46,180 nucleotides of DNA from Microcaldota archaeon (lineage in GTDB: Archaea > Micrarchaeota > Micrarchaeia > Micrarchaeales > CABMGC01), in contig JAJYWY010000017.1 of assembly GCA_021791245.1 (NCBI GenBank), positions 1-46,180 of the forward strand, read 5' to 3'. Below are positions 1-37,926 of the stretch, one piece after another. The notes beneath the pieces are model-generated. The model was not told where the DNA came from and made no database searches. It worked only from the letters and a program-made list of their open reading frames with translations. Position numbers and translations under genes: made by a program. Numbering within the stretch: the first letter of the stretch is position 1; each line of letters starts with the position of its first letter.

Positions 1-3000
1 ACAAAAAGCCGGGGGGGGGGGGGGGGGGGCGGAACGTATTCTTATTCAATACCTGTGCAGGCAACGATACCCCTTAATGGCACTGCGGATCCACTGGAAG
101 CGCAGCAGGGTGTCTTTTCTCCAATATCTTTTGCATCTCCATCTCAATTGCCAATAGTAGGCGCCGAAGGCGATCTTGTATCCGGAAGCTATTATGAGAG
201 CCCCACTGCAAGCGTATATGCAGTATCAGGCAGCCCTTCGTTTGCATACGGCACGGTCATATACTCCGGCCCTTCATCATGTGCGGCAGTAGAGGCAAAT
301 GTAATATCCCCATTTAACACAGCCCCTATGAATCACAGCATAATAATAGTAACTTCCAATGCCGTAAACATAACTGGGCTGAACTGCCAAATAGGGAATA
401 ATGTTGCAGGAGTAATATCTAATACCATAAATGTGCAAACAACGCCTAATTCCGCGTATCTTGTATATTCTGGAAACTTCGCGCTCGCCGGCGCTTTCAA
501 GACAGGTATGAAGGTGTTGCTTTACGGACCCGGCTTGGATGCAATTAATCTTGATGGAAACAATGGAGACGGATTCATAGAAAGCATTGCAAATGGAAAG
601 TTCTTCCCATCTAAATTCATGCCTTCATATATAGATCGTGCGGATAACAATATTGGCGCGGAGAGCTCTCATGGAATATTCAAAATATCAGGGTACAATA
701 CACAATCAGCATATTTCGATGGAAATGGAAATATAATAATACCTCATTCTCAGTCCTTGGCTCTTACTGGAAACTTTGCGCTGAGCTGGTGGTTCAACCC
801 TTCATTGTCACAATCTGTGAAATACGATGAAGAGATGGTTAACTCAAGGTGCCCTACAGATACCACATTTGACATGCAGCTTATAAGCGCAGGCTATAAC
901 TCAGGAGTATATGGGCTGCACGGGGATGTAGGAACAGGTACAGGTACATGGCTTGCTACAGACATAAATTATCAATATGTGTTCAGCAATAATACCTGGT
1001 ATAACGTTGCAGTAGACATAGCAACTTCGGGGTGGTCTCTTTATCTTAATGGAAACGAAGTTTCATCTGGATCATACTCTGGAACCCCAAGCCTTACTGA
1101 TGGCAATAGCAATATTTATTTGGGAGAATGTGGAACGCTCCCTTCAACAAATTTCAACGGCAACATGGCTAATTTGCAAATATACGGATCGTCACTTTCA
1201 AGTTATAATATAAGTAGGATATATTCAAGAGGGATAGATGGGCTTCCACTGAACACAAACTCCCTTGCAGCATGGTATCCTTTCAATGGGAATACCACGG
1301 ATGAAAGCGGCAACGGCAACAACGGAATACCTGTAAATACAATATTCAAGCGCATGCCTAGCTATAACGGCGATTCCATAAACGGCGGAAATCCAGCAAA
1401 CAATACTATGCCTATACCAGGAGTGCTGGGTTGCGATAGCTTCGGAGAATGCACAAACCAATCTCTGCCGCACTTGTACGGCACTTCTACAATGCCTGCC
1501 TCTGCATTGCAGCAGTCTCTTCAAGTCGCAAAGTTTAGCTATAATAAAAAAAGTTATATCCCTTCATTCTCTCCACAAATAAATACAGCTTCAGGCGATT
1601 ACAACACAGTTTCATTCTGGATGTTTTGGAATCAATCAATTGCAGGCAACACAAGGCCATTTGGATTTAATGTATATAGTCTTGTTGGCTGCGGCATGGA
1701 ATGCACTCCACCAGTGTTTGGCTTCAATACCGATAATGGAGATTATTATGGGATAAGCACCGCAAGTGTAAACGGGCTTAATGATCACTGGGTAAACGTA
1801 GTTGCAGAATTCTATAATGGATACTATACAGGAAACAGTTTTATCTATATTAATGGCACAAAGCAGACTTTGGTTCAAACAATAGGTACAGGACAAGGTG
1901 CTATCAGCACACCATACTATACTATTGGCAATTGGGGATTGCTTGGCAATTATTGGAATGGCGATATTGCGAATCTTCAAATATATAACGGATCACTTAA
2001 TTCAAATCAAATATCAACATTATATAAAGAAGGTATAACAGGGCTTCCGCTTAATGATGGCAGTCTTGCAGCATGGTATCCTCTCAATGGCAATGCAAGG
2101 GATTATTCCGGCAGCGGAAATGATGGACTTGCATACAATGTGACATTTCCATATTTTTATCTTGCTGGATACACGCCTGGCAGTAATCAAGTGTTGTCTG
2201 AACTTACTAGTATTTTCAATATTGCAAATATATTCCAGCTTTTCGGACTTACAACTCCCACACCATTAGGCAATGGGCAATACCATGTAGTGGTAACGCT
2301 CACAAATACGCAGTCATTGCCCACTCCTGTGCCGTTTCAGCAGATGGTGACTGTAGATAGCGCAACATATTCAAACTATGAGGATACAAACCTTGACAAT
2401 GTATATTTCTCATATGCAAATGGAACCATAATACCCAGTTGGCTTGAAAGCTGCAGCTCTACGTGCAGCACAAGCGGTTCTTCAAGCACAAGCACGGTAT
2501 ACTGGCTTAAGCTGAATAAGCCTATACCAGCTGGTGGGGAGATGCTGATTTACATGAGCTTTGCGCCAAAAGGCGTTAACATGTTCAATGGTAAGACAAT
2601 CGGCGAGGCTCCACAGCTCAGCTCAACCTACGCTCAATACGACGACGGGGCGAGCGTTTTTTTGGCTTACTTTAATATGCAAAACAACCCTATATCCTCA
2701 TCGCATTTAGGAACATCATATTATAGTATAACAACTACAACAGGACCAAATGGAGTAAATCAACCCTTACTTACGTGGACAGGAACTACTGGACAAGATT
2801 TTGATTTTATCAATTTAGCTTCAACTCTTCCATCAAATTACATAATTACTGATTGGGTTAAGTCAGATGCTCAAAGCTATGATATTGGCTTAGGAGCAGG
2901 TTCAACAACAGCAGGAGAGTGGGATGGTTATGTTGTTGACCCAGGAGCAAATACTAATGTAGATTTTAATTTATGGAAAATAACTGGGACTACTTTTGGA

Positions 3001-3300
3001 GTTCTTACATCTGTATCTTACTCCCAATCAGCAAGCACTTGGTATACTTTAGAGTTTCAATATGTATCAGGAGGCTCTATGACTGGCTGGGTAGAGCCAT
3101 GGCAGAACACTCTTGACGCAAGCTCATCATCTAATAAAGTTACTGGTTCAGATACTACATATACCTCTTTTAATGCAATAGAGCTGTTTCCTTACTCTGG
3201 TTCAACATCAGACATAACTTCTTGGGCTTTAATGGTCGCCCGTGCCTACCCTCCCAACGGCGTGATGCCTAGTGTAAACTTTGGGTTGGTTGGAAGCTGA
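1..3300 (+). CDS. Large surface protein with two LamG/concanavalin-A-like domains and a C-terminal DUF2341-like region; 5' end open at window edge
   Basis: ORF 55-3300 starts at an internal GTG; the same frame is open back to nt 1 (..GGGGGTYSYSIPVQATIPLNG). Two repeated LamG-type units (GLPLNTNSLAAWYPFNGNTTDESGNGNNG and GLPLNDGSLAAWYPLNGNARDYSGSGNDG); DUF2341-like end ARAYPPNGVMPSVNFG. Confidence 0.75.
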   Translation, partial: TKSRGGGGGGGTYSYSIPVQATIPLNGTADPLEAQQGVFSPISFASPSQLPIVGAEGDLVSGSYYESPTASVYAVSGSPSFAYGTVIYSGPSSCAAVEANVISPFNTAPMNHSIIIVTSNAVNITGLNCQIGNNVAGVISNTINVQTTPNSAYLVYSGNFALAGAFKTGMKVLLYGPGLDAINLDGNNGDGFIESIANGKFFPSKFMPSYIDRADNNIGAESSHGIFKISGYNTQSAYFDGNGNIIIPHSQSLALTGNFALSWWFNPSLSQSVKYDEEMVNSRCPTDTTFDMQLISAGYNSGVYGLHGDVGTGTGTWLATDINYQYVFSNNTWYNVAVDIATSGWSLYLNGNEVSSGSYSGTPSLTDGNSNIYLGECGTLPSTNFNGNMANLQIYGSSLSSYNISRIYSRGIDGLPLNTNSLAAWYPFNGNTTDESGNGNNGIPVNTIFKRMPSYNGDSINGGNPANNTMPIPGVLGCDSFGECTNQSLPHLYGTSTMPASALQQSLQVAKFSYNKKSYIPSFSPQINTASGDYNTVSFWMFWNQSIAGNTRPFGFNVYSLVGCGMECTPPVFGFNTDNGDYYGISTASVNGLNDHWVNVVAEFYNGYYTGNSFIYINGTKQTLVQTIGTGQGAISTPYYTIGNWGLLGNYWNGDIANLQIYNGSLNSNQISTLYKEGITGLPLNDGSLAAWYPLNGNARDYSGSGNDGLAYNVTFPYFYLAGYTPGSNQVLSELTSIFNIANIFQLFGLTTPTPLGNGQYHVVVTLTNTQSLPTPVPFQQMVTVDSATYSNYEDTNLDNVYFSYANGTIIPSWLESCSSTCSTSGSSSTSTVYWLKLNKPIPAGGEMLIYMSFAPKGVNMFNGKTIGEAPQLSSTYAQYDDGASVFLAYFNMQNNPISSSHLGTSYYSITTTTGPNGVNQPLLTWTGTTGQDFDFINLASTLPSNYIITDWVKSDAQSYDIGLGAGSTTAGEWDGYVVDPGANTNVDFNLWKITGTTFGVLTSVSYSQSASTWYTLEFQYVSGGSMTGWVEPWQNTLDASSSSNKVTGSDTTYTSFNAIELFPYSGSTSDITSWALMVARAYPPNGVMPSVNFGLVGS
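11..29. repeat. Poly-G homopolymer tract (19 G)
   Basis: Direct reading: gcc-(g)19-cggaacg, inside the open frame of the LamG protein. Confidence 0.9.
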
Positions 3301-7033: not shown

Positions 7034-7597
7034 ATGACGTTACATGCCAAAACACGGAAAGCACAAAGCGCAATGGAGTACTTGATGACATACGGTTGGG
7101 CTATATTGATCATAGCCGTAGTGTTGGGAGTCCTCTTCAACATAGGTGTGTTCAATGGCGCAGGAGCGCTTGGAACATCATGTGTAGCATATTCTGGATT
7201 CTTATGCTCATCGCCGATACTAAGCCATACTACAGGAAACTTGATAGTGACAATAGGCCAGAATACAGGCATAGACTGGGCTTCTGCAAACGTAGTGTTC
7301 GTGCCGCAAGGAGGAAGCACAACATCAGGAGGAGTGCCGCAGGTTAGCAGCGAACCACAGGTTCCAGGTTTTTCTGCAGGTAATACATTCAACGGAGTTG
7401 CTTACAATGGCGCAGCAAATGCTCTAGGTTCATTCAACTCAGGCCAAAGCCAATCTATAACTCTTGTAACCGGACAAAACTCAGGGATAAATACAGGTAC
7501 GTTGGTATCTGGAGCAATATGGTCAGCATACACAGTCTCTGGATCGTCAAATGTATATTACGTCCAGATGGCAACTGCAAACCTGAAGGCAGTATAA
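7034..7597 (+). CDS. Class III signal peptide / pilin-like secreted protein
   Basis: N-terminus KTRKAQSAMEYLMTYGWAILIIAVVLGVLF (archaeal prepilin-type Q-[ST]-A-[MI]-E-Y motif). ATG at 7034 preferred over TTG at 7001 in the ORF track. Confidence 0.8.
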   Translation: MTLHAKTRKAQSAMEYLMTYGWAILIIAVVLGVLFNIGVFNGAGALGTSCVAYSGFLCSSPILSHTTGNLIVTIGQNTGIDWASANVVFVPQGGSTTSGGVPQVSSEPQVPGFSAGNTFNGVAYNGAANALGSFNSGQSQSITLVTGQNSGINTGTLVSGAIWSAYTVSGSSNVYYVQMATANLKAV

Positions 7598-7830
7598 TCC
7601 TGCCTTCTTTTTCTTTTTTTCTTAATCATTATCTTAATTATGTGATTTTTCATATTCCTCAAATTTTTTATATTCCCCAAATAATTGAAGATTTTTTACG
7701 CAAGCATAGATAAATACAAGTTTGAAAAAGCTTCTATCATGCAAGCTGTCTTACAGAAGGTCTTTTACTGATGCCATGCATTTTGATAGTCATATTTTTA
7801 TTTCTTGGTCTTTTCATAATATAGATTCAT

Positions 7831-8901
7831 ATGGCAGAACCCTACATGTCTGAGGACGACCAGGAACTTCTCAATTTCATAGAGGCTGCAAAACCGAAGA
7901 TCCTTGTAATAGGCGCAGGAGGCTCGGGCTCAAACACAGTAACAAGGATGAACGAAATGGATATAGAAGGAGTGACGCTAATATCCGCCAATACAGATGC
8001 CCCTCATCTTGCAAAGACCAAGTCGCACAGGAAGATACTTCTTGGAAAGAAGCTTACGAGGGGGCTAGGCGCAGGAAGCGATCCCAAGAGGGGCGAAGAG
8101 GCGGCGCAGGAGAGCACAGAAGATATTAAGCACATCATAAGCGATGCGCAGATAGTATTCGTAACGTGCGGCCTCGGAGGAGGAACAGGCACCGGATCCG
8201 CGCCTGTCATAGCCCATCATGCAAAGGAGGCTGGCGCGCTTACGATAGGCATAGTGACGCTGCCTTTTTCAAGCGAGGGAAAGACAAGGATGAAAAATGC
8301 GCTTGAAGGGCTCGCCAGGCTCAAGAGGGCCACAGACACTACAATAATAATACCTAATGACAAGCTGCTCTCAGTAGCGCCTGACCTGCCGATAAACATG
8401 GCGTTCAAAGTCTGCGACGAAGTGCTTGCGAATGCAGCCATTGGAATAATAGAGATGGTCACAAAACCTGGCCTAGTCAACCTCGATTTCGCAGACTTAA
8501 GGGCAGTCCTCAAGGACTCAGGATATGCGGTCATAGGCATAGGCGAGGTGAATTCTGCGCCTGCTGAGACAAGGGCTGCAAGCGTTATAGACGGCACGCT
8601 CAAGAGCCCTCTTCTTGACGTAGACTTATCAACCGCAAAGAAAGCGCTTGTCAATATAGTGGGAGGGGAAGACCTCACGTTAAGGGAAGCAGAGACCATC
8701 TTCCAGGAAGTGTCGAATAGGATAAGCATAGATGCAATGCTCAAATGGGGGGCGAGAATAGACCCTGAGATGCAGAAGAGCTCCGTAAAGGTTATGGTGG
8801 TAATGGGGGGAGTGGAGTATGCAGAATACACTGAGAATGGGATAAAGAAGAAGATAGAGGATTCCGGGGATATAGATCTGGATAATTTGTTTGATGACTG
8901 A
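7831..8901 (+). CDS. ftsZ: Cell division protein FtsZ
   Basis: GAGGSGSNTVTRM, CGLGGGTGTGSAPVIA, NIVGGEDLTLREAE. Confidence 0.97.
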   Translation: MAEPYMSEDDQELLNFIEAAKPKILVIGAGGSGSNTVTRMNEMDIEGVTLISANTDAPHLAKTKSHRKILLGKKLTRGLGAGSDPKRGEEAAQESTEDIKHIISDAQIVFVTCGLGGGTGTGSAPVIAHHAKEAGALTIGIVTLPFSSEGKTRMKNALEGLARLKRATDTTIIIPNDKLLSVAPDLPINMAFKVCDEVLANAAIGIIEMVTKPGLVNLDFADLRAVLKDSGYAVIGIGEVNSAPAETRAASVIDGTLKSPLLDVDLSTAKKALVNIVGGEDLTLREAETIFQEVSNRISIDAMLKWGARIDPEMQKSSVKVMVVMGGVEYAEYTENGIKKKIEDSGDIDLDNLFDD

Positions 8902-30732: not shown

Positions 30733-31893
30733 GTGCAGCTTAAGCTTCCAAATATATACCACTACAAGCACTTGAAGGTGCTTCTTGCCATACCAGTGCT
30801 TATGATGCTGTTTGGCATACTGCTTTCCACGCATCTCCAGTTTGACACAACCCTCAGTGGGGGAGTAAGCGTGCTCCTGCAGACAAATTCAACTATAAGC
30901 CCGTCTGCCTTCGCATCTGCAGTATCATCAAAACTCGGAGTTAGCGAGCCAACAATAGCAAGCAGCCCGGGCGGATATCAGGTAACCATACCTATGAACA
31001 ACAGCCTGTCAAACGCACAAAATTACCTTATTGCATTCTTCGATTACAATGCAAATTACTCAGTGCAATCGGTCAATGCCACTTCAATACAGATAGCGCT
31101 TCAGCATAATCCTGCAAATGAAACCCTGGCCTCAGAGCTCAAGACAGCGCAGGCGCAGGAGAACCAGACTCTTTCGCTTATGTCGTCTTCGCTCGGTTCC
31201 GAGCTTGGCGAGCTAAGACCTTTCATAAACACCTCCAAATATGCATACGGCACAAGCAATCCGCAGCAGATGGCAAATGTTGCGAAGTTTGCATTCTCGA
31301 ATGCGAGCACAGTATACAAGGACAATGTGATATCCGATCTTAAATCCATAGTGCCTTTCACTTCATATTCGTATCAGCAGGTTACCCCGACTCTCAGCAG
31401 CTACTTCCTCAGCCAGGTCGAGTACCTTATAATAATAGCGTTTATACTGGTATCGATATCTGTACTTTTTATCTTCAGGAGCCCTGCTCCAGCATTTGCA
31501 GTAGTATTCGGGGCGGGAAACGACATAATAGTTGCGCTAGGATTTATGGCAATATTCAGGATACCTCTTGGATTGGACAGCCTTGGCGGGCTTCTTATGC
31601 TGATAGGCTATTCCATAGACACGGACATGCTTACTGCAATGAGGATATTAAAGAGGCATGAAGGTACTCCTGAGGATAGGGCATATTCGTCCATGAAGAC
31701 AGGTATTACCATGACTGCCACTGCGATAGTCTCCTTTGCAATACTCTTCATCGTGTCGCTTGTAGCGTACATACCAACATATTATGAGATATCAGGAGTC
31801 GTGCTCTTTGGGCTCATAGGCGACATCATAACTACATGGTTCGGAAATGCGTCAATAGTTCTCCTCTACTACAAGTGGAGGGAAAGAAGGTGA
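30733..31893 (+). CDS. secF: Protein-export membrane protein SecF
   Basis: FDTTLSGGVSVLLQ, GAGNDIIVALGFMAIFRIPLGLDSLGGLLMLIGYSIDTDMLTAMRI. Confidence 0.9.
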   Translation: MQLKLPNIYHYKHLKVLLAIPVLMMLFGILLSTHLQFDTTLSGGVSVLLQTNSTISPSAFASAVSSKLGVSEPTIASSPGGYQVTIPMNNSLSNAQNYLIAFFDYNANYSVQSVNATSIQIALQHNPANETLASELKTAQAQENQTLSLMSSSLGSELGELRPFINTSKYAYGTSNPQQMANVAKFAFSNASTVYKDNVISDLKSIVPFTSYSYQQVTPTLSSYFLSQVEYLIIIAFILVSISVLFIFRSPAPAFAVVFGAGNDIIVALGFMAIFRIPLGLDSLGGLLMLIGYSIDTDMLTAMRILKRHEGTPEDRAYSSMKTGITMTATAIVSFAILFIVSLVAYIPTYYEISGVVLFGLIGDIITTWFGNASIVLLYYKWRERR

Positions 31894-31906
31894 TCATATT
31901 ACAGTA

Positions 31907-33469
31907 ATGGATTATCTAAAGGATAAAAGAATTTTAGCAATGATCATACTCATAATAGCCTTTGCTATCCTTGACCTTAAATTTGGGCTAAATTTTGGAA
32001 TAGAGTTCGCAGGCGGAACGCAGATTCCGGTCACATTGTCGCACAACGTGACACCAAACGAAATGGATCAGATAATAAGTATACTGCAGCAGAGGGTTTC
32101 TACCTTTGGCCTAAAGCAGGTGGTGATTGAAGGGGTTGGAAGCTCACAGATATACGTTATAATACCAAGCGTGTCCGGAGCGGATATAAATTCCACAATA
32201 GGGATAATAGAGAGCCAGGGAGTATTCCAGGGGATAGTAAATGGAAAGGAGGCACTTAACGGATCTTCGATACTTAGCGGCAGCATAGGCGCAGTCCCGC
32301 CTAGCGTTAACAACAACAGCGTGTCATGGGCTGTTGACTTCTTCATAACTGAGCAGGGAGCCAATAGATTTTCCAAAGCGGTGCTTGGGCAGGCAAACCA
32401 GCCTTTGTATATGTTCCTAGACAGGCCGCAGAATGCGATAGTTCTGCTCAATTCTGCACTTTTGCAAGAGAACAACACTTTCAACATTAACGAGAACAGC
32501 GAAATAAACGCTATAGAAAACGGAGTGGCGTTTGGCAACCAGACCATACCGGTAGAGCTTCTTACGCAGAGCAACTGGAAGCAGCTATACCCATTCTTCA
32601 GCAACAACAGACAAAAGTACGGCAAAGTTATACTACAGCAGGGCACAAACAGCAGCATAGAAGAGCAGCTCAAAGCTCTCAATTATACTCTTATTCCCGA
32701 AAGCACTGCCAACATGACTCCGCAATTCGTGCCGCCTCAATCCGGAACTTCTGCATTGCTCAATTCATGGCCTGCCATAGGCTTGCTTTCTGCGCCTATA
32801 CTAAGCCCTCAGATAACCAACGGCTCAACAGGGCTTAGCTACCAGATAAGCGGTTTTGCCCCGTCATCTCTTGCACTCCAGGCAGCAGAAGCTTATGCTA
32901 CTACTCAGGCTTCTACTATATCGAGCATATTGAGCGGAGGCGCATTGCCTGTTTCCGTAATAGTCAATTCACCTACTGTAACACAGCCTACTTTAGGATC
33001 ACAGTTCCTTTATGTAAGCGCAATAGCAGCTGTAATCTCGGTACTTGCGGTATCGATGGTGATAGTCATAAGGTACAGGAAAATATTCCTGATAGGGCCA
33101 ATACTACTGACTACGTTGGCAGAGCTGTTCATAGTAATATCGGTGATAGGCCTTTTAGGTACAATAGACATATCAGCAGTCGCAGGAATGATAGCTGTTG
33201 TAGGCACAGGAGTGGATACCCAGATAATAATGACAGACGAGGTTGTGTCTGGCAGGCGGGAGAGCACAGCGCAGGCGCGATTCAAGGATGCATTCCGCAT
33301 AATATGGATAAATGTTGGCCTTTTGATAATAGCCATGCTGCCTCTCCTCTTTTCAACATCGCTTGTAGATATAATAGGCTTTGCCGAGGCAACTATACTC
33401 GGGGCGATTCTTGGAGTATTGGTTACAAGGCCAGCTTACGGGGCTATAATAAGCAGGCACTATAAGTAA
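31907..33469 (+). CDS. secD: Protein-export membrane protein SecD
   Basis: LKFGLNFGIEFAGGTQIPV, VSTFGLKQVVIEGVGSSQIYVIIP, TIDISAVAGMIAVVGTGVDTQIIMTDE. Confidence 0.9.
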   Translation: MDYLKDKRILAMIILIIAFAILDLKFGLNFGIEFAGGTQIPVTLSHNVTPNEMDQIISILQQRVSTFGLKQVVIEGVGSSQIYVIIPSVSGADINSTIGIIESQGVFQGIVNGKEALNGSSILSGSIGAVPPSVNNNSVSWAVDFFITEQGANRFSKAVLGQANQPLYMFLDRPQNAIVLLNSALLQENNTFNINENSEINAIENGVAFGNQTIPVELLTQSNWKQLYPFFSNNRQKYGKVILQQGTNSSIEEQLKALNYTLIPESTANMTPQFVPPQSGTSALLNSWPAIGLLSAPILSPQITNGSTGLSYQISGFAPSSLALQAAEAYATTQASTISSILSGGALPVSVIVNSPTVTQPTLGSQFLYVSAIAAVISVLAVSMVIVIRYRKIFLIGPILLTTLAELFIVISVIGLLGTIDISAVAGMIAVVGTGVDTQIIMTDEVVSGRRESTAQARFKDAFRIIWINVGLLIIAMLPLLFSTSLVDIIGFAEATILGAILGVLVTRPAYGAIISRHYK

Positions 33470-33488: not shown

Positions 33489-34550
33489 TTGCAGATGCTT
33501 TTTTGGAGTAAGCAGGAATATCAGTTTAATACAGAAGCAATAAGAACCCCCCTTTTCCAAACTTTTAGCATGGAATCAAATATAATGAAGGGGGAACATG
33601 ACGATAAAAAACAGGATAAGCTGAAAGACCTTATCAGAAAGGCAAAAGCAATATCCCGAGATGCAGCTATTGCAGGGCTTATCTACGTATCTGTATTCAT
33701 GCCATTAAACAAAAACCTTAATGGAAAACAGATTCCTATGCCAATCCGCAGCAATGCGCCAATTTTTTTGTCAATACATAAAAATAGCGCAACGCATGTA
33801 ATTACAGAAACATCACTGAACTGGTGCGGATACGCAGTTGAAACAAATTTTAATGATCCAAAATCAGAAATAGCACACGTACATGGAGACTTCAAGGTGA
33901 TTAAGGCACAGCCTTCATTGCTTCCAAGGTTTTCATCAGAATGGATAGGAATAGGAGGGATAGGGGACAAGTCGCTGATACAGATTGGCATCTCTGCAAA
34001 TTCCTCATTCGCGGGCTCCGGCTATTTTGCATGGTACGAGTTGCTGCCTAAATACGAACAATACATACCTATGAAGATATATCCTAAAGACCATATTATA
34101 GCAAACATAAAACTTGTAGACAAAAAAACAAATACCTGGGAAATGAATATGTCAGACCTTACAGAAGGGGAATGCTTTTCCAAAACTGTCACATACAAGT
34201 CAGCAATGCTATCCGCAGAGTGGATATTGGAAAAACCTGAGATAACGTTCCATCTATTTGGCATAACAGCCCCCATGATAACTCCATTGGAATATTTTAA
34301 TGATGCAAGTTTTGGCAACTTTCCCCTGCTCAACAGCAATTATGCTGTAATCAATGGCAAGTGGAGAAGCATAAACGAGGCCAATTACGTTAAAATAGAC
34401 ATGGTAACGGAAAGCGGAAAAATTATAGCCTCGCCATCAAAATTATCCGAAGATGGCACGTTCTTCGAGGTAAAAAGAAACAAGATCGATGATAAGCCTA
34501 TAATAATTATAGAAAATAGCGATAAAACGCACAAGCCTGCAACGCAATAA
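33489..34550 (+). CDS. Predicted membrane-anchored glutamic peptidase, G1 (eqolisin) family
   Basis: NWCGYAVET..VHGDFKVI..SEWIGIGGIGDKSLIQIGISANSS..YFAWYELLP..IYPKDHIIANI..SAEWILEKPE..PLEYFNDASFGN, matching the eqolisin order of motifs including Gln (LIQIG) and Glu (AEWILE). Confidence 0.82.
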   Translation: MQMLFWSKQEYQFNTEAIRTPLFQTFSMESNIMKGEHDDKKQDKLKDLIRKAKAISRDAAIAGLIYVSVFMPLNKNLNGKQIPMPIRSNAPIFLSIHKNSATHVITETSLNWCGYAVETNFNDPKSEIAHVHGDFKVIKAQPSLLPRFSSEWIGIGGIGDKSLIQIGISANSSFAGSGYFAWYELLPKYEQYIPMKIYPKDHIIANIKLVDKKTNTWEMNMSDLTEGECFSKTVTYKSAMLSAEWILEKPEITFHLFGITAPMITPLEYFNDASFGNFPLLNSNYAVINGKWRSINEANYVKIDMVTESGKIIASPSKLSEDGTFFEVKRNKIDDKPIIIIENSDKTHKPATQ

Positions 34551-35468: not shown

Positions 35469-35960
35469 GTGAAAATGGCAACAAACGACGAGATACAAAA
35501 GAGACAAGGATCTTATAAAGAAGATTTAGACCACAACGGAATAAAAGGCAGTTTTAAAAGTATAAAAAGACTTGGAACTGCTATTATTGTAGGTTCAGTA
35601 TTGATAGGATCTCTTTACGGATGTAATAGGGCACCTAAACCCAATTTAAAAACCAATTTAATTAATAAAATTAATAATGAAAAAATTAATAAAGAAGCAA
35701 TATTGTTAGAAAAGGCACCACATTTGGTAGAATCTAATCCATTTGGTGTAACATGTCCTGAGCTTAAGACCGCGATAAGAACTGAAATAGATCATTCTAT
35801 AGCAGGTTTTGCAGAATCCCAGGTATTAAGGCCGAGGAAATATAAGTGGGTAACCCTTCAACTTTTAGAACAAGTGAAATATCACAGCTTGGTTGCAAAT
35901 GATTTCTTTATATTATATGAGCTAAAAGGCTGCAACTCAGAATCTCCAAAGACAAGATGA
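35469..35960 (+). CDS. Hypothetical membrane-anchored/lipoprotein-like protein
   Basis: ORF with hydrophobic segment ending in lipobox-like LIGSLYGC. Confidence 0.5.
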   Translation: MKMATNDEIQKRQGSYKEDLDHNGIKGSFKSIKRLGTAIIVGSVLIGSLYGCNRAPKPNLKTNLINKINNEKINKEAILLEKAPHLVESNPFGVTCPELKTAIRTEIDHSIAGFAESQVLRPRKYKWVTLQLLEQVKYHSLVANDFFILYELKGCNSESPKTR

Positions 35961-36948: not shown

Positions 36949-37926
36949 TTATCTTTGTTTTTCCAATATTTTCTTGCCTATCATGGATCTTCCGCTTATC
37001 ACCCTTAATTGGCGTTGAATATAATATTTATCGCTATCGAAATTTTGTATCAATATGTTGTTTGTTGCATCTGCAATAAAATATTCATTGTCTATTTTAA
37101 CTTTTACCCATGCATGCCCGTTTTGCTCAGGGTCAGATTTTTTTATCTTTCCTACAGCATACCATGATTTTATGTTCTCACGCCTAAGGAGGAGATGCAG
37201 CACTGCAGCCTGCTCTTTGCACACTCCACTAAATGCTGCTATATTCTCTTCCAAATTCATTATATCAAAACTTCTTTTGTCATCGTGATATTTTATAGCT
37301 ATCCGTACGCATTCTATTAATCGCCTTACCTTCATTATCTCCTTTTCTTTCCCATCCGGCAATTTATCTAGAACATTACCATATGCATTCCTGTATGCCA
37401 AGTGAATGCCGGATATTCCTTTGCTTGTACTGGAAGGAATCAGTATTGGGCCATTATTAACAAACACTATATCTCCTGGCTCTAGCTCCTTAAGCCTCTT
37501 TTTTGAATAGGCATAATTAAATTTATTTATAAATTTTTTATAATTAGAAGAGATTTTTCCCATTTGAAATGTTCCAGAAATATAATTGTATAAAGAATAT
37601 ATTATGCCAATATCTATTATAGGTGATAGTGATATCGGCAAAAAAAAGTTTGTAATAAATGAAGCAACAGCTACGAAAGTGCCCCTTGAGAGTTTTTTCT
37701 CGATGTTATTAAATTTATTGGTCCAATCCCATCTCTTTTTTGATTCCTTCAATGTGCTTGTATATATCGATTTAATCTCATGTATATCTTCTTCGGTAAG
37801 TTTATCTGGTATGTATCCAAACATTTTCCTATTCATTGCTCTTCTTGCAATAAGATCTTGATGCTTGCGCAAAGTCTCTTTGAAACTAGCTTTTTTAGCA
37901 TCTTTAATTGAAAGCATATTATGCAC
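36949..37926 (-). CDS. Transglutaminase-like cysteine protease-fold protein with membrane segments
   Basis: Cys/His/Asp pattern FSGVCKEQAAVLHLLLRR..NGHAWVKVKIDNEYFIADATN. Confidence 0.75.
   Translation of the reverse strand: MHNMLSIKDAKKASFKETLRKHQDLIARRAMNRKMFGYIPDKLTEEDIHEIKSIYTSTLKESKKRWDWTNKFNNIEKKLSRGTFVAVASFITNFFLPISLSPIIDIGIIYSLYNYISGTFQMGKISSNYKKFINKFNYAYSKKRLKELEPGDIVFVNNGPILIPSSTSKGISGIHLAYRNAYGNVLDKLPDGKEKEIMKVRRLIECVRIAIKYHDDKRSFDIMNLEENIAAFSGVCKEQAAVLHLLLRRENIKSWYAVGKIKKSDPEQNGHAWVKVKIDNEYFIADATNNILIQNFDSDKYYIQRQLRVISGRSMIGKKILEKQR

Follow-up and report, generated by a model that had tools for sequence, protein, structure and literature searches.

The window analysed here, a stretch of 46,180 nucleotides, makes up contig 9 of a Micrarchaeota genome of 839 kb (G000; 92.6% complete), and a single uninterrupted ORF on its forward strand (33489-34550) raises the question of whether a DPANN archaeon encodes a working G1 (eqolisin) glutamic peptidase and where such an enzyme would act. 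The eqolisin family is best known from fungi, whereas the host here is a tiny archaeon living in acid habitats. The features discussed are listed in Table 1. TTG 33489 is probably too early to serve as the start codon; ATG 33570 is the probable start, being the first plausible ATG ahead of the N-terminal hydrophobic segment, with ATG 33585 as the alternative. The predicted product consists of a basic N-terminus, a hydrophobic segment of 15 residues and the catalytic domain, in that order.

The ORF was searched against Pfam and matched Peptidase_A4 (PF01828) with an E value of 6.7e-18 (65.3 bits, cut-off 22.3 bits), the sole Pfam family found. A phmmer search of PDB sequences retrieved 1y43_B, the heavy chain of Aspergillus glutamic peptidase (AGP), at E 9e-4; with a profile of 31 homologues the same chain was found at E 8e-28 and scytalidoglutamic peptidase (SGP, 1s2b) at E 2e-22. 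All of the motifs named in the initial annotation were located in the ORF, with a match far above chance, and on these sequence comparisons the assignment to the G1 family is solid. In the profile alignments the Gln that had been proposed as catalytic (CAG 33981-33983) fell on SGP Q53. Two codons had been put forward for the catalytic Glu; the first choice, GAA 34230-34232, aligned with SGP E136 and AGP heavy-chain E110, and GAG 34218-34220 was ruled out, since it aligned with SGP E132, the preceding E of the AE-W pair. Both residues of the dyad were invariant in 99 of 99 homologues, the E having belonged to the pattern used in collecting these sequences and the Q not.

A model of the protein was computed with AlphaFold2 from an input alignment of 31 sequences (mean pLDDT 82.4, pTM 0.76; mostly above 90 in the catalytic domain) and compared with the PDB using Foldseek. 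The five best matches were all G1 enzymes, SGP (2ifr, 2ifw and 1s2b) and AGP (1y43 and 3trs), with a TM of 0.83-0.84 on the target and E values from 1e-12 to 1e-7; YncM-like proteins, neprosin and lectins ranked next, at much lower TM. The Pfam match and the SGP-like predicted fold, in a genome assigned to Micrarchaeota, bear out the earlier prediction of a G1 peptidase in a DPANN archaeon. Fold and alignment together imply that the side chains of Q138 and E221 would face each other in a cleft. A catalytically dead binding protein that keeps the G1 fold, which resembles that of concanavalin A-like lectins, would fit the lectins among the weaker matches and the replacement by Gly of D43, a helpful residue in SGP. 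The protein keeps Gln, Glu and every main motif of the active site, however, and Gly occupies the D43 position in 58 of the 99 homologues, being common among prokaryotic members, so that a dead protein is highly improbable and an active peptidase is preferred.

Table 1. Features of the window eqolisin gene, its upstream neighbours and other hydrolase genes of the same genome.
Feature	Position	Strand	Basis or remark
G1 (eqolisin) peptidase gene, probable start	33570..34550	+	PF01828, 65.3 bits; 326 aa from ATG 33570; ORF open from TTG 33489
Long basic n-region HDDKKQDKLKDLIRKAKAISRD	33597..33662	+	Sequence
15-residue hydrophobic segment AAIAGLIYVSVFMPL, probable signal-peptide core or short anchor	33663..33707	+	Hydropathy rule
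Peptidase_A4 catalytic domain (beta-sandwich)	33819..34391	+	Pfam match, AlphaFold2 model, Foldseek
NWCGY motif (SGP NWGG, W6)	33819..33833	+	Motif reading, profile alignment
WIGIGG motif; fifth residue G in place of SGP D43	33942..33959	+	Profile alignment, 99 homologues
LIQIG motif with predicted catalytic Gln, CAG (Q138; SGP Q53)	Gln at 33981..33983	+	Profile alignment; invariant 99/99
AWYELLP motif	34029..34049	+	
SAEWILE motif	34212-34232	+	
Predicted catalytic Glu, GAA (E221; SGP E136)	34230..34232	+	Profile alignment; invariant 99/99
F..ASFGN motif	34296-34319	+	
secF-secD, upstream neighbours	30733..33469	+	No conserved partner
Two thermopsins (A5)	G000 contig 11, L184:5966-7138, 7301-8377	-	Lysine-rich, basic N-termini
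Third thermopsin (A5)	G000 contig 36, L194:8045-9319	+	Lysine-rich, basic N-terminus
GHL10-like glycosidase	G000 contig 37, L215:7235-8506	-	24-residue basic n-region, AxA-type signal cleavage site, lysine-rich

The eqolisin gene lies 100 bases 3' of secD, a position from which the enzyme could be read as a component of, or a processing factor for, the adjoining SecDF export machinery. secD was present in 55 of 59 family genomes and the secF-secD pair was conserved among relatives, yet neither an eqolisin nor the window's downstream genes stood beside secD in any of 29 secD loci of relatives, whose eqolisins were on other contigs or far from secD. A functional tie to SecDF was therefore rejected, and this largely refuted reading is left with an almost negligible probability. 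Downstream of the eqolisin are encoded a RIO-like kinase-like protein, a 163-aa protein (35469-35960; lipobox-like LYGC behind a long basic N-terminus, GC 0.33, without a Pfam match), a 97-aa ORF and a transglutaminase-like protein (36949-37926). Homologues of the last were found in 10 of 61 related genomes, and since these overlap the eqolisin carriers only in part, the gene was rejected as a companion. A conserved eqolisin neighbourhood was likewise rejected, as none of the window's neighbouring genes was found near the eqolisins of relatives in the loci examined. The gene thus has a lineage-specific position, from which no clue to function can be drawn. GC was 0.28-0.39 in the eqolisin and downstream stretch, as compared with 0.42-0.48 upstream; that a low-GC segment was inserted beside secDF is reasonable but unproven. 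At the other end of the window (55-3297) a 1081-aa surface-like protein with Laminin_G_3 domains is encoded, which is related to surface proteins adjoining the eqolisin of G081.

The family was found in 39 of 302 genomes of the phylum, with a patchy distribution and up to 8 copies. A genome of about 0.9 Mb (G004; L007, L160 and L161) had eight eqolisin matches, of which two lie in tandem on contig 19 and two face each other on contig 5. Eqolisin domains were also seen within very large surface-like proteins (L164:9949-17319, 2457 aa; L167:2162-6694, at least 1511 aa). A collection scan, made with a six-member alignment, detected the family in Chloroflexota, Actinomycetota, Acidobacteriota, Bacillota, Patescibacteria and Nitrososphaerota as well, and 16 more distant matches (L101-L116; 24-29% identity) were on contigs of a viral collection, their origin being given by the collection only. 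The closest relative of the window eqolisin was about 43% identical, and there was no close orthologue. A tree built from 99 domains grouped the window copy with the G004 paralogues (support 82, open fork), within a set of 20 rows (support 95) made up of Micrarchaeota sequences, one from Bathyarchaeota and one labelled Marsarchaeota; a second Micrarchaeota clade (L003, L006, L009, L011 and L015) and L004 were placed elsewhere, deep placements being unsure because this was a quick tree with long branches. The eqolisin of L022, a record labelled Marsarchaeota, closely resembles the Micrarchaeota copies L027 and L035; either the bin is mislabelled or the gene was transferred recently.

Export features of the window eqolisin were judged by a crude hydropathy rule only. 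The initial annotation had suggested an extracellular enzyme with an N-terminal hydrophobic anchor; the hydrophobic segment is present and export is plausible, signal-like N-termini being seen repeatedly among the eqolisins of relatives, and the anchor is the weaker part, since a stretch of 15 residues resembles a signal-peptide core more than a membrane anchor. The A4 domain has 9.7% K+R, 22.6% STNQ and 2 sequons, as against about 1-6% K+R, about 30-40% STNQ and many sequons in the genome's clear surface proteins, and medians of 14.3% K+R and 17.8% STNQ in ORFs without a hydrophobic segment. The composition is intermediate, nearer the cytoplasmic pattern. Because the domain departs in this way from the organism's other surface proteins, extracellular placement goes no further than plausible, and exposure of the enzyme to strong acid is uncertain. 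The three thermopsins of the genome (K+R 10.7-14.1%) and a GHL10 glycosidase (13.6%) show a similar composition, likewise closer to that of cytoplasmic proteins, and each has a basic region before the hydrophobic core. Eqolisin and thermopsins alike are lysine-rich, poor in glycosylation sequons and located behind basic n-regions, and as they are unlike the low-lysine surface proteins, a simple picture of an acid-exposed surface protease is not secured. The sedolisin/kumamolisin prodomain (PF09286) was not found in this genome.

Across Micrarchaeota, eqolisins and thermopsins showed the same split into lysine-rich and low-lysine members, with overlapping GC, and in the eqolisins K+R and sequon density were negatively related (Spearman -0.55, p 0.003, rows not independent). 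The split was noticed post hoc and is based on hydropathy rules, and the two-class pattern is taken as a lead. The idea that lysine richness results from low GC alone was rejected, since the lysine-rich thermopsins and the GHL10 glycosidase are in loci or genes with GC up to 0.53; base composition alone is an insufficient explanation, as the GC of the classes overlaps and that of the GHL10 gene is 0.49 in spite of its lysine-rich product. This argument, and the presence of two classes both among the exported-looking proteins of this genome and among the eqolisins and thermopsins of the phylum, would suit an exported G1-fold peptidase that, as one of the lysine-rich exported hydrolases, is active in a compartment milder than the acid outside, for instance a space beneath the envelope of the cell itself or the interior of a symbiotic host archaeon. 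Against this, composition is an indirect indicator, exported proteins were picked out by a crude hydropathy rule, Paenibacillus also has lysine-rich eqolisins and no delivery system came to light; we regard this reading as unlikely. There is also little probability in the broader idea that Micrarchaeota run two export classes, one low-lysine and glycosylated for the acid outside, the other of lysine-rich, sequon-poor hydrolases (the eqolisin, three thermopsins and GHL10, with basic and often extended signal regions) destined for surroundings of lower acidity, perhaps in the cytoplasm or on the surface of a symbiotic host archaeon.

The preferred, and probable, reading is that the gene encodes a real G1 glutamic endopeptidase, which would be exported, active in acid and engaged in scavenging protein. 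The basic N-terminal region and short hydrophobic segment would carry the enzyme out of the cytoplasm, and the mature beta-sandwich domain would cleave proteins at low pH through the Gln-Glu dyad. The catalytic roles of these residues are established in SGP, and by analogy E221 would activate water and protonate the leaving amine, with Q138 stabilising the tetrahedral intermediate. The three thermopsins of the same genome, members of another acid peptidase family, also speak for this reading. Protein digested around the cell would give products to be taken up by an amino-acid-dependent organism. Most amino-acid biosynthesis is reported lost in Micrarchaeota (PMC5864196), and a scavenging role would suit a phylum that reportedly synthesises hardly any of its amino acids.

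G1 peptidases of archaea have been on record since 2010 (PMC3009609; PMC6154417) and bacterial members are also known, so that the window enzyme adds to a known family and is not a new kind. A MEROPS annotation of Micrarchaeota is already published (PMC5864196); none of the papers searched paired DPANN or Micrarchaeota with the G1 family by name, and earlier reports of DPANN members may exist. Glutamic peptidases recur, though patchily, among the genes of Micrarchaeota, and a genome of about 0.9 Mb can contain as many as 8 copies. The window eqolisin is a concrete target for the study of how amino-acid-dependent DPANN symbionts obtain protein, and the lysine-rich versus low-lysine split in eqolisins and thermopsins makes the place where these enzymes act a testable question.

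Among known systems, SGP (PDB 1s2b/2ifw; MEROPS G1) is closest in fold (TM 0.84 on the target) and has in common with the window protein the Gln53/Glu136 dyad and the NW, W.GI.G and AWYE motifs; the two differ in sequence (about 18-20% identity), and the window protein has Gly for D43, a lysine-rich domain and a long basic n-region. Neprosin, a glutamic-class prolyl endopeptidase, is a weaker fold match (TM about 0.4-0.5, about 10% identity) and belongs to a different family. The pepG1 of Alicyclobacillus and the archaeal G1 enzymes of Caldivirga, Acidilobus and Picrophilus (PMC3009609), compared by description and not by sequence, are similarly prokaryotic, with a conserved dyad and acid habitats, whereas the window gene is in a reduced DPANN genome. 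The surface-type eqolisins of other Micrarchaeota (L031, L163 and L164, for example) have the same domain and dyad, at about 33-43% identity, but unlike the window copy they are low in lysine, have many sequons and are often part of surface proteins of 600-2500 aa.
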